Assembly: GCA_009694865.1 (NCBI GenBank)
Contig: SICD01000005.1
Location: 1-43,278 of the forward strand
DNA length: 43,278 nt
Direction: 5' to 3'
Source of the DNA: Candidatus Magasanikiibacteriota bacterium
GTDB lineage: Bacteria; Patescibacteriota; Patescibacteriia; Magasanikbacterales; GWA2-37-8
Part shown: in pieces, positions 28,176 through 31,707 of the stretch
How the letters are laid out: each line of letters starts with the position of its first letter
Numbering within the stretch: position 1 is the stretch's first letter
Notes under the pieces: model-generated
Told to the model about the DNA's origin: nothing
Databases searched by the model: none
The model's input: the letters and a program-made list of their open reading frames with translations, nothing else
Position numbers and translations under genes: made by a program

Positions 28176-29576
28176 GAACAATCGTGGTTGTTTCGTCCCA
28201 GCAGGTTTACTCAAAGGAAATGGGTCAACCACGCCATATTGCCCATCAAACCCGGGCACAATTTTTACCTTACCTGCGCGCATATGCTGTATTCCCAAGG
28301 CAATATTTTTGTCATTCACAGCCTGTTCAATATCCTGTATATCCTTATATAATAAAATCTCAAATTCATTACCCAGCGCTGGCACCAGCCGCCGATACTC
28401 CACCTCAACCGCTTTGCTCTTTTTTCCAACCCCTAAACACGCGCTAATAATTTCCCGGAGCGGAACAATATATTTGTGGGGGATAAAATTTTCTTGAATG
28501 ATTTTATCTTCCGATCGATCCGATAGTTCATCCACGCGGTACAAAACTCCCACCGTGACTTTTTTCTTGCATACGGGACAAATTCCCTTATTTCGTTTCG
28601 TCTCGGCTGGCGTACAAGAAAATTTACAGTCCCGGTGTCCATCGTAATGGTACATCCCCTCCTCCGGATAAAATTCAATCGTGTATAAAAACTTTTTCTT
28701 ATCCCCGGTTTTTAAAATTCGCCGAATCTCATCATACGTAATATCTTTTTCATTCTCAAACGCAAACACATTAGCCTCGCGCCCCAAATTATCCAAACTG
28801 TGGGCGTCCGAATTTGAAACAAGCGTAATGTTGTCTAAATTCGTGAGACGGCGGTTCATGGGCGGGTCACTAGAGAGGCCGGTTTCAATCGCAAAAATTT
28901 CCGGCGTTAACTCTTCAAAACATTCCTCCAAAGAATCGTAACCAGACTTAGATCCAAACACCGCAAACCACGGCGTCCACGCGTGCGCCGGAATTACCAT
29001 CATGCGTGGGTCAATATCCAGGCACATCTTTACAATCTCTTTCCCCGTAATCCCAATAATTGGCCGGCCATCGGCATGCAAATTGGCTCCATAATCAAGC
29101 AACGCTTGATTAAACCGCTTCGCCACCGCCAAATTTGGAGCATAAATGAGTAGGTGCAAACGCCGCACTTTCTCCTTATGTTTGTAAATACAAGAAATCT
29201 CCGTCCCAACAATAAATCGCACCGGCGTCGACATTGTCATCCTGAGTCGGAGCGAAGAGCCTGTCCTGAGGCTCGCGCCGAAGGAATCTAGTTCATTCGA
29301 TTGGCCAACTAGATTCTTCGCTTCACTCAGAATGATATGTGACTGAGCCAGAGATCCCTCCTGCGGTCGGGATGACAGTTGGTACAAACCACTCTTCCCA
29401 ATCTCTTCCAAATTCTCTTCCAAGTGTTCCATCCACTTGGGATGCGTAAAATCCCCTGTCGACACAATCCCAACCCCCTTCTCCCCACACGCCTTGGCAA
29501 TTGCGGGCAACTCCAACAGCGGCGAGCACGCCCGCGCGTATTTGGAATGAATGTGGAGATCGGCGACCACCTCCAT
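28173..29576 (-). CDS. PHP-domain protein, endonuclease Q-like
   Basis: MEVVADLHIHSKYARACS, STGDFTHPKWMEHL, ISNSDAHS-like LVSNSDAHSLDNLGREANVF, zinc-binding CKFSC...CPVCKKKVTVGVLYRVDELSDR. Confidence 0.85.
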   Translation of the reverse strand: MEVVADLHIHSKYARACSPLLELPAIAKACGEKGVGIVSTGDFTHPKWMEHLEENLEEIGKSGLYQLSSRPQEGSLAQSHIILSEAKNLVGQSNELDSFGASLRTGSSLRLRMTMSTPVRFIVGTEISCIYKHKEKVRRLHLLIYAPNLAVAKRFNQALLDYGANLHADGRPIIGITGKEIVKMCLDIDPRMMVIPAHAWTPWFAVFGSKSGYDSLEECFEELTPEIFAIETGLSSDPPMNRRLTNLDNITLVSNSDAHSLDNLGREANVFAFENEKDITYDEIRRILKTGDKKKFLYTIEFYPEEGMYHYDGHRDCKFSCTPAETKRNKGICPVCKKKVTVGVLYRVDELSDRSEDKIIQENFIPHKYIVPLREIISACLGVGKKSKAVEVEYRRLVPALGNEFEILLYKDIQDIEQAVNDKNIALGIQHMRAGKVKIVPGFDGQYGVVDPFPLSKPAGTKQPRLF

Positions 29577-29577
29577 A

Positions 29578-30243
29578 TTAAATAAAAGAATTAAAGTCTT
29601 TAGGAATTGGTACCTCAACTATGACCAGTTCGCTTGTAGTGGCCGTTGCAAAAGCCAGCGACGTGGCCGCCAACGCTAACACCTGATTAGGCAACTGTTT
29701 TGAGGCTCCGTACTTCACATCCCCAACTATTGGGGATCCGATATACCCCAGCTGCGCCCTAATTTGGTGCGACCGCCCCGTACCGAGCTTAACTTTGAGC
29801 AAAGAATATTTTCCATTTGACTTAACCACTTCATAACTTAAATCTGCTCGCTGGCTTCCCGTAGTCTGTAGTCTGTGGACGGTAGTCCGATTCGTATTCT
29901 CATCCTTTGTTAAAAAATGCACCAAAGTTTCTTTCTCTTTTTTTAATTTTCCTTCCACTACGGCATGATAAATTTTTTCTACTGTGTGATTTCTAAACTG
30001 CTCTGAAAGTCGGCTCGCCCCCTTACTCGTCTTCGCAAAAAGAATGATTCCCTGCACATTCCTGTCGAGCCGATGCAATAACCCCAAAAAAACTTTCCCT
30101 GTTTTATGATACTTTTGTTTTAAATAATATTTCACCTCATCCATCAAAGTCGGGTCGCCCGTCACATCTCCCTGTACCAAAACGCCGGCCGGTTTATAGA
30201 CGGCAATGAGATGATTATCTTCGTAGAGCACTTGTAAGGGCAT
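29578..30243 (-). CDS. RluA-family pseudouridine synthase
   Basis: VLYEDNHLIAVYKPAGVLVQGD, LGLLHRLDRNVQGIILFAKTSKGASRLSEQF, GRSHQIRAQLGYIGSPIVGDVKYGA. Confidence 0.93.
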   Translation of the reverse strand: MPLQVLYEDNHLIAVYKPAGVLVQGDVTGDPTLMDEVKYYLKQKYHKTGKVFLGLLHRLDRNVQGIILFAKTSKGASRLSEQFRNHTVEKIYHAVVEGKLKKEKETLVHFLTKDENTNRTTVHRLQTTGSQRADLSYEVVKSNGKYSLLKVKLGTGRSHQIRAQLGYIGSPIVGDVKYGASKQLPNQVLALAATSLAFATATTSELVIVEVPIPKDFNSFI

Positions 30244-30295
30244 GGGATTATATGCGAATGCGCTGAGACGCCACGAATTTTGCCAATCAACACTA

Positions 30296-30682
30296 TTAAT
30301 TAGTTACTCTCCAAATTTGCAGAGGCCGTACTCTAAAATTAACTAATAAACCCAAACGTAAATTCAATGCTTCTAAATAACGCAGTAGCTGAATTTTGTG
30401 ATCTTTAGTGAGTCTGTCCGTGGCTTTAAACTCAATAACTATTTTATTATCGACAACTAAATCGGCACGAAAATCTCCTATGACCACGCCATCTATTACT
30501 ACATGTAACGACGCTTCAGCAACATACGAGATGCTTTTGCTTTTCAAGAATGCGCAAACAGCTTTCACATAATGTTTTTCCTGGAACTTAGTTCCTAACT
30601 TATTTTGAACATCAAACAAGACACCATTAAGTTGATAGGATAGTTCTTGGTAAATAATTCCTCCCATATTCTCTATTCGCAT
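30296..30682 (-). CDS. GxxExxY protein
   Basis: IIYQELSYQLNGVLFDVQNKLGTKFQEKHYVKAVCAFLKSKSISYVAE...IVIEFKATDRLTKDHKIQLLRYLEALNLRLGLLVNF. Confidence 0.9.
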   Translation of the reverse strand: MRIENMGGIIYQELSYQLNGVLFDVQNKLGTKFQEKHYVKAVCAFLKSKSISYVAEASLHVVIDGVVIGDFRADLVVDNKIVIEFKATDRLTKDHKIQLLRYLEALNLRLGLLVNFRVRPLQIWRVTN

Positions 30683-30711
30683 TATTCGTGGGCCCTCAAG
30701 GCCATTCGCAT

Positions 30712-31707
30712 TTATTCCTTACTCCACCGCGCAAAAATTCCCGCTGGCAACAATCGCTCACTACCTTTCTCTGCGATCGTCAGCTCCCCAATTTCGATTT
30801 CTCCTTTGTACTCTTTCATTAAATCCGCTAAATTATTTTTATAGGAAATTGCTGAATACCCCGATGCATACCCATTGATAAGAAAAAATAACGGCTGGTC
30901 GCTTAAAACCTGTTTACAGACATCGAGCAACTCCAAAAAATGATCTTCCACTTTCCACAATTCCCCCTTCGCTCCATGCCCAAAAGCTGGTGGATCCATA
31001 ATAATACCATCATATTTATTTCCTCGTTTCACTTCCCGTTTCACATACGCCCGTGCGTCATCAAGTATCCAACGAATGGGTTTATTTTCCAAACCCGACA
31101 ACATGGCGTTATCCCGTGCCCACCCAATCGCCACTTTCGATCCGTCCACGTGGACTACCTCCGCCCCCGCTTTCGCGGCAGCAAGAGAGGCCCCTCCCGT
31201 GTAACCAAACAAATTTAGAACGCGGACGAGTCCTCCTCCCGCCTCCTCCCCTGCGGTGGAGGAGGTTGCGTTTCCCCTCCCCTTCGCAAAGGGGAGGTCG
31301 GGGAGAGGTCTCGCTTTGTTTTCTTGTTTTCTTGTTTTCTTGATTTTCTCCCCAATCCACTCCCAATTCCCCACCTGTTCCGGAAACACCCCCGTATGCT
31401 TAAACGCCGACAATTTAATCCAAAGCTTAAAACCAGCAAGATCAACGGGCCACCGCTCCGGTAATTTCTTTCGCGTCTGCCATGTCGCCGTAGGGACAGG
31501 TCTAGACCTGTCCCCACCGTTTTCTGAACGAAAATACGCATCCGCCTTCTGCCACTCACTCTCTGATAACCGCTTTTTCCACAACGCCTGCGGATCCGGC
31601 CGTGCGACCGTCACCTCGCCATACCGCTCCAATTTTTCCCCGTCGCCACTATCGAGCAGGGCATAATCATTGCCTGGTTTAGTTTTTAAAATGGAGTATT
31701 CATGCAT
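30712..31707 (-). CDS. class I SAM-dependent rRNA methyltransferase (RlmI/RlmK-like)
   Basis: VLNLFGYTGGASLAAAKAGAEVVHVDGSKVAIGWARDNAMLSG, DGIIMDPPAFGHG. Confidence 0.88.
   Translation of the reverse strand: MHEYSILKTKPGNDYALLDSGDGEKLERYGEVTVARPDPQALWKKRLSESEWQKADAYFRSENGGDRSRPVPTATWQTRKKLPERWPVDLAGFKLWIKLSAFKHTGVFPEQVGNWEWIGEKIKKTRKQENKARPLPDLPFAKGRGNATSSTAGEEAGGGLVRVLNLFGYTGGASLAAAKAGAEVVHVDGSKVAIGWARDNAMLSGLENKPIRWILDDARAYVKREVKRGNKYDGIIMDPPAFGHGAKGELWKVEDHFLELLDVCKQVLSDQPLFFLINGYASGYSAISYKNNLADLMKEYKGEIEIGELTIAEKGSERLLPAGIFARWSKE

Follow-up and report, generated by a model that had tools for sequence, protein, structure and literature searches.

A GxxExxY nuclease gene between inverted box arms in a Patescibacteria genome, a probable copy of a selfish palindromic element

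The window, by which we mean the whole stretch of DNA analysed (43,278 nt of contig SICD01000005.1), belongs to a Candidatus Magasanikiibacteriota genome of 987 kb (G000). Between the genes for a SAM-dependent methyltransferase (30712..31707, minus strand) and an RluA-family pseudouridine synthase (29578..30243, minus strand) it holds a GxxExxY gene (30296..30682, minus strand), assigned from profile matches, alignment and a structure model to a predicted PD-(D/E)XK nuclease of 128 aa. The gene lies between two inverted arms made of short boxes, and the whole element, which has no strand of its own, spans 30245..30718, as delimited by the sequence, the alignment of the arms and the empty junctions of relatives. 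Sequence and arm alignment place the left arm at 30245..30288 (plus strand), with the boxes ATGCGAAT (30252-30259), CACGAAT (30272-30278) and TGCCAAT (about 30281-30288) and a mini-hairpin at 30260-30271, and the right arm at 30675..30718 (minus strand), with the boxes ATTCGCAT (30704-30711), ATTCGTG (30684-30690) and again ATTCGCAT (30675-30682) and a mini-hairpin at 30691-30703. The reverse complement of 30675-30718 aligns with 30245-30288 over 44 versus 43 nt, with three boxes per arm, and the interval between the first and second box is in each arm a GC mini-hairpin (GGCC-TTGAG-GGCC and GCG-CTGAGA-CGC). The element occupies the space between the two flanking genes: the methyltransferase stop codon lies inside it, 1 nt separates its end from the RluA ATG, and its innermost box contains the GxxExxY start codon. 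The sequence-only reading had drawn the arms at 30252-30278 and 30684-30711, with the outer 9 and inner 8 nt identical, and these are present as written; that they abut the neighbouring genes is borne out too, whereas their extent was set too short, each arm running to about 44 nt and the methyltransferase stop codon being included. Taken alone, the inverted repeat is only moderately significant against chance, as its Smith-Waterman score is 31 and, of 342 random placements of the same geometry in the relatives' loci, 5 score at least 30. It is nevertheless certain, because the architecture recurs in a gene-less copy elsewhere in the same genome (L005).

The window protein is a member of the GxxExxY/PDDEXK_3 family, with scores above the curated cut-offs of TIGR04256 (102.1 bits, cut-off 35) and PF13366 (103.6 bits, cut-off 22). 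Across 103 aligned sequences, residues E35, D74, K86 and Y102 do not vary, and E84 and Q98 are kept in at least 90%; D..ExK plus the QxxxY residues form what we take to be the motif of the RecB/Cas4-like branch of PD-(D/E)XK nucleases. The structure model (pLDDT 90.5, pTM 0.83) is closest in fold to 4ic1 (SSO0001, presumably a Cas4), with a Foldseek E of 1.9e-4, a Z of 9.8, an rmsd of 3.2 and 98 aligned residues; restriction enzymes, Hjc, LHK-Exo, MGME1, AddAB and Dna2 follow at Z under 8. By its residues and its modelled fold, the GxxExxY protein is predicted to be a PD-(D/E)XK nuclease of the Cas4/RecB-like type. It is under purifying selection, the median dN/dS being 0.11 for 22 pairs, which include one identical pair. 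GxxExxY genes are common, though we know of no role assigned to them, and the passages of open-access full texts that name GxxExxY do not deal with arms.

The sequence-only reading had anticipated flanking inverted repeats at other GxxExxY genes, and these are widespread. In a set of 95 relatives, the window's own genome included, 35 genomes have PF13366, with 117 matches, of which 2 at contig ends and then 1 of the remaining 115, too near an edge, were left out; inverted arms scoring at least 30 flank 90 of the resulting 114 genes, versus 5 of 342 placements drawn at random within these loci. The architecture also recurs across phyla: among 80 named loci from Bacteroidota, Ignavibacteria, Chloroflexi, Acidobacteria, Desulfobacteraceae, Nitrospirae and others (three of which repeat genomes of the relatives set), 78 remained after L182 and L210 were dropped, and 51 of them have inverted arms, versus 1 of 312 random placements. 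The arm score is below 30 at 24 of the 114 and 27 of the 78 genes, respectively. The boxes have the core C-N-R-A-T and are spaced by about 8-10 nt; by eye, a common arm form is ATAGAAC-RCNGAT-GAC-RCNGAT-TTR-RCNGAT-TTY-RCNGAT, and the classic class has four boxes per arm with a 9-9-10 spacing. The motif ATTCGTGG..ATTCGCAT, suggested earlier as the flanking repeat, is one such box variant, but not a fixed one, as the variants change with the nuclease subfamily. The likeness drawn in that reading to S23 elements, with their ORF in a palindrome, is real as well: among the loci listed, out of many more matches, inverted box arms of similar layout and with other boxes (about 8 nt, of the types AGTTCATAG and TAAGTGTG; L118-L147) are found at 25 of 30 S23 (PF05635) genes of the same genomes, versus 0 of 120 placements. 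The S23 genes examined are taken to lie outside rRNA. S23 is a four-helix bundle without a nuclease fold, and the shared layout suggests that copying of the elements could rest on host machinery.

In relatives, the order of the methyltransferase and RluA genes is conserved and empty sites, for which the sequence-only reading had suggested looking, are found between them. The GxxExxY gene in the window fills an inverted-repeat element and not ordinary operon spacing. At the 24 loci where both genes were aligned and measured, the window's own copy (L228) among them, the junction is 2-50 nt in 12, against 471 nt in the window. One 108-nt junction (L237) holds a gene-less box palindrome of 80 nt, and the remaining junctions measure 105-121 nt or contain unrelated genes. 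At a second site, the empty junction is 1 nt (L140), compared with 566 nt where GxxExxY is present (L077).

Some copies are located within genes. Open frames of at least 287 aa contain ten of the 115 GxxExxY matches, among them in-frame copies in RecG of four genomes (L053, L054, L055 and L057), always between DEQHRFGVEQR and TATPIPRS, C-terminal fusions to RecJ in three genomes (L075, L081 and L086) and, read by eye, a dUTPase fusion and two prepilin-like frames. The solved RecG structure 1gm5 aligns to 10-415 and 578-846 of the insert-bearing RecG, Pfam PDDEXK_3 matches at 440-553, and positions 424-566 of the query are spanned by the four RecG rows only, the other RecG rows listed staying on one side. 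In all four genomes, helicase motifs II and III flank the RecG insert, and the arms of the RecJ-fused copies translate to NAD/DAN-rich repeats. Between two species (G077 and G084), the recG inserts are identical over 400 nt, on one side the adjoining 200 nt have identities of 0.99 and 0.93, on the other 300 nt have 0.91-1.00, and beyond these identity is about 0.8 and rises again further out. This tract, a single case, is perhaps what homing would leave; it could also stem from ordinary recombination.

The window's genome has two further GxxExxY genes, both with inverted arms, one with ACGGATT-type boxes (L001) and one with ATGCGAATCTAC-type boxes (L003), and a half element (L006) that adjoins recR. 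The gene-less palindrome L005 lies between gmk and rplS, both named by reading of their ORFs, and has a window-like architecture with a loop of a few nucleotides; when it was compared with 133 GxxExxY arm sets, the arms of the window scored 54 and the next best 25. Other repeats were observed in the same genome. In-frame palindromic repeats occur in the window inside the methyltransferase gene (31220-31345, CCTCCCCTTCGCAAAGGGGAGG type), where about 100 nt are absent from relatives (L002 versus L230 and L231), and inside a PHP-like gene (29229-29390, TCATCCTGAG..GAGCGAAG type), and a 123-nt insert of the latter type is present in a gene of L001 read by eye as leucyl-tRNA synthetase. The RecG match of G000 (G000:C55:13600-14685) lies in an open frame of 823 aa, compared with roughly 700 aa in most relatives, and the longer frame is possibly due to another insert.

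Gene-less palindromes are dispersed over many genomes and co-occur with GxxExxY. A covariance model, R1, built from nine of them and used to search the 95 relatives, matched in 31: in 27 of 35 GxxExxY-positive and 4 of 60 negative genomes (p 1e-12), with a Spearman correlation of 0.80 between the copy numbers of palindromes and GxxExxY genes. In the largest family alone, palindromes are present in 23 of 27 positive versus 3 of 19 negative genomes, and in 100 genomes of a second class in 45 of 67 versus 5 of 33 (p 1.4e-6); they were also matched in 20 of 20 named GxxExxY genomes tested. Palindromes also occur where GxxExxY is lacking, in four relatives and in five genomes from the second class. 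Phages were rejected as a vehicle, no GxxExxY relative being found in 50,697 phage records with L001 as the query and none confirmed in viral contigs, as were plasmids, with GxxExxY relatives in 8 of 72,556 records.

Another enzyme, such as a Y1/HUH REP transposase or one from an insertion sequence, might move the palindromes, GxxExxY being a passenger between two copies. Overall, Y1_Tnp does go with palindromes (19 of 36 versus 12 of 59 genomes, p 0.0016), and in one genome (G162, L307-L326) the box palindromes occupy the centres of MITE-like elements of two kinds, with terminal repeats GAGACCTCTGAAAAAT and CAATGCTGTCAGGTTA, so that palindromes there are carried in a MITE with GAGACCTCTGAAAAAT ends. 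Their spread is hitch-hiking, because they lie inside a MITE, and the G162 family of identical copies, though the most striking one, was dropped as proof of active movement since its copies are nested in a conventional MITE. On the other side, a Y1_Tnp (PF01797) match at E<=0.001 is absent from G000 and from its congener G001, both of which have palindromes, and Y1 as the sole driver was thus rejected for G000; Y1_Tnp is also absent from 12 of the 31 palindrome-positive relatives. In relatives without it, palindromes are present in 10 of 13 GxxExxY-positive versus 2 of 46 negative genomes, and Y1 makes no added contribution to a rank regression (coefficient -0.03, compared with 0.58 for GxxExxY). 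The passenger explanation, which we consider unlikely, also sits poorly with arms that track the identity of the nuclease: over 8,778 pairs, with elements scoring below 30 or with broken frames left out and L148 repeating the G081 element, arm similarity correlates with nuclease identity (rho 0.45, Mantel p 0.001). Mere co-inheritance could produce this concordance. When protein identity is equal, elements from one genome resemble each other hardly more than elements from different genomes do, arm similarity within versus between genomes being 0.231 versus 0.210 and 0.230 versus 0.232 in the two lowest identity bins.

Gene-less copies also resemble the arms of their own genome's GxxExxY elements in part of the cases. 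In each of the high-copy genomes G054, G114 (Cnuella takakiae) and G098, the palindromes match arms of their own genome better than any others of the 133 GxxExxY arms. With one palindrome per genome in 19 genomes, the own element ranks first in 7 (0.4 expected), or in 5 of 17 after removal of two palindromes close to a GxxExxY gene, whereas the matching fails in 8 of the 19, the own rank being 26 or worse. The 41 copies at 40 loci of the three genomes have a near-constant size, sharp ends and unrelated flanks. No target duplication was seen by eye in the 41 flank pairs, where the palindrome continues into the flanks (A|T, GA|TC), which leaves its ends uncertain. The copies have diverged, and therefore no recent movement is evident there; no transposition event was seen among the copies examined.

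Twenty-six of these 41 gene-less copies coincide with the stop codon of a long frame, versus 31 of 200 random positions, and their box cores are kept while the spacers drift. Kept cores with free spacers resemble binding sites, and the boxes might be operators, with GxxExxY acting as a nuclease or DNA-binding regulator, the gene-less palindromes as regulatory sites or terminators, and movement occurring only by rare recombination; the stop-codon positions would also suit such a role. Yet match counts per genome searched, with both strands of one palindrome scored separately, range from 0 to 150 or more and the sites differ, positions at gene 3' ends fit insertion better, and neither the in-frame copies inside RecG and RecJ nor the empty sites would be expected of operators, which makes this a rather improbable explanation.

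The arms had been proposed to form a pairing stem-loop, a claim that finds no support in the dispersed copies. Left-right agreement at variable positions, compared with that of arms of different copies, is 0.43/0.49, 0.42/0.50 and 0.38/0.46 in gene-less copies of G054, G114 and G098, analysed at the commonest length only (12 of 21, 6 of 12 and 7 of 8 copies) and, in G054, only for copies starting ATAG or GTAG. Thus, no compensatory pairing between the arms was found in the gene-less copies of these three genomes (permutation p 0.94-0.99), and the conserved unit is therefore a set of inverted boxes, which, as far as sequence can tell, argues for DNA boxes bound by protein over an RNA stem. Gene-bearing arms of Patescibacteria are often near-perfect complements (L108, with 44/44, L105 and L094), possibly through recent arm duplication or conversion. 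These complementary arms, together with the ORF-in-palindrome layout and the arms at S23 loci noted above, would suit an intervening sequence of the S23 kind, in which the arms base-pair into an RNA stem that is removed or cut by RNase III, the protein being a by-product. This is very unlikely, given the lack of excess left-right agreement in gene-less copies, the position of the window copy between two protein genes and not in rRNA, and the dN/dS of 0.11; identity with an RNA family was rejected for lack of any Rfam match in 13 sources.

Hence, we hypothesize, with a probability of about 0.6, that the GxxExxY gene, together with its arms, is a copy belonging to a family of selfish palindromic elements with a cognate PD-(D/E)XK nuclease. 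An element of this family would consist of inverted multi-box arms that either enclose their own GxxExxY nuclease gene or are gene-less (about 80 nt). We infer that the nuclease has as its binding sites the inverted boxes found in elements of its own class, and that the bound enzyme cuts DNA and thereby starts copying. Elements would in this way reach new positions beside gene ends, where they would often supply the stop codon, and, through break repair as in homing, empty alleles of used sites. A broader proposal, for which we would give slightly less than even odds, is that these are multi-phylum mobile palindromes outside the known transposon families, in which a stand-alone Cas4/RecB-like nuclease recognises inverted box arrays and spreads copies with and without the gene, placing them at gene ends and, through homing, in frame inside essential repair genes, with S23 four-helix proteins as a second, non-nuclease occupant. 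The nuclease-in-box-palindrome layout is apparently a widespread and undescribed kind of small selfish DNA element, as no paper joining box arms with a GxxExxY gene was found in the open-access literature. If the hypothesis is true, it provides a function for GxxExxY genes, names a class of bacterial selfish DNA whose drifting boxes may have kept it out of repeat catalogues, offers an enzyme and its site as a tractable pair for studying the spread of palindromes without a classical transposase, and would account for some of the insertions in genes of Patescibacteria, RecG and RecJ among them, with a tie to the S23 puzzle.

Several known systems share parts of this design. Rickettsia palindromic elements and other MITEs are palindromic repeats, some of them in frame in protein genes, and to our knowledge have no linked nuclease gene, whereas the box palindrome described here encloses one. 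Similar to homing endonuclease genes, a single small nuclease is found as an in-frame insert at one conserved RecG site in four genomes, one RecG pair having a flanking tract that resembles co-conversion; in contrast to them, most GxxExxY copies are at scattered gene ends, have inverted box arms and gene-less relatives, and are surrounded by neither intron nor intein. For the S23 intervening sequences of 23S rRNA, the part of the source available to us describes a small ORF in a loop between inverted terminal repeats (PMC4990558). The ORF-in-palindrome layout of GxxExxY is the same, and S23 genes also have box arms in the genomes studied here, but the window element is not in rRNA, its protein is unrelated and under strong purifying selection, and its gene-less relatives have no arm covariation. 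REP/REPIN-RAYT systems are described, in the accessible parts of three papers, as short palindromic intergenic doublets with a high copy number in some genomes and several classes per genome, each beside its own single gene (PMC3116915, PMC8266576, PMC3733652), and REPs inside repair genes are reported in one of these (PMC3733652). Like REPINs, the palindromes described here are dispersed doublets tied to the flanking repeat of a gene, with the caveat of the eight genomes of 19 in which the matching fails, and gene-bearing and gene-less copies have common ends. Unlike in REPIN-RAYT systems, the gene codes for a predicted PD-(D/E)XK and not an HUH nuclease, Y1_Tnp is missing from G000, there is no fixed GTAG tag, and the classic class has four boxes per arm instead of one REP hairpin. 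By analogy, the best reading is that the element would work like REPIN-RAYT, and perhaps like a homing endonuclease, while belonging to neither, because G000 has no Y1 transposase, the nuclease fold is a different one and the arms are multi-box.
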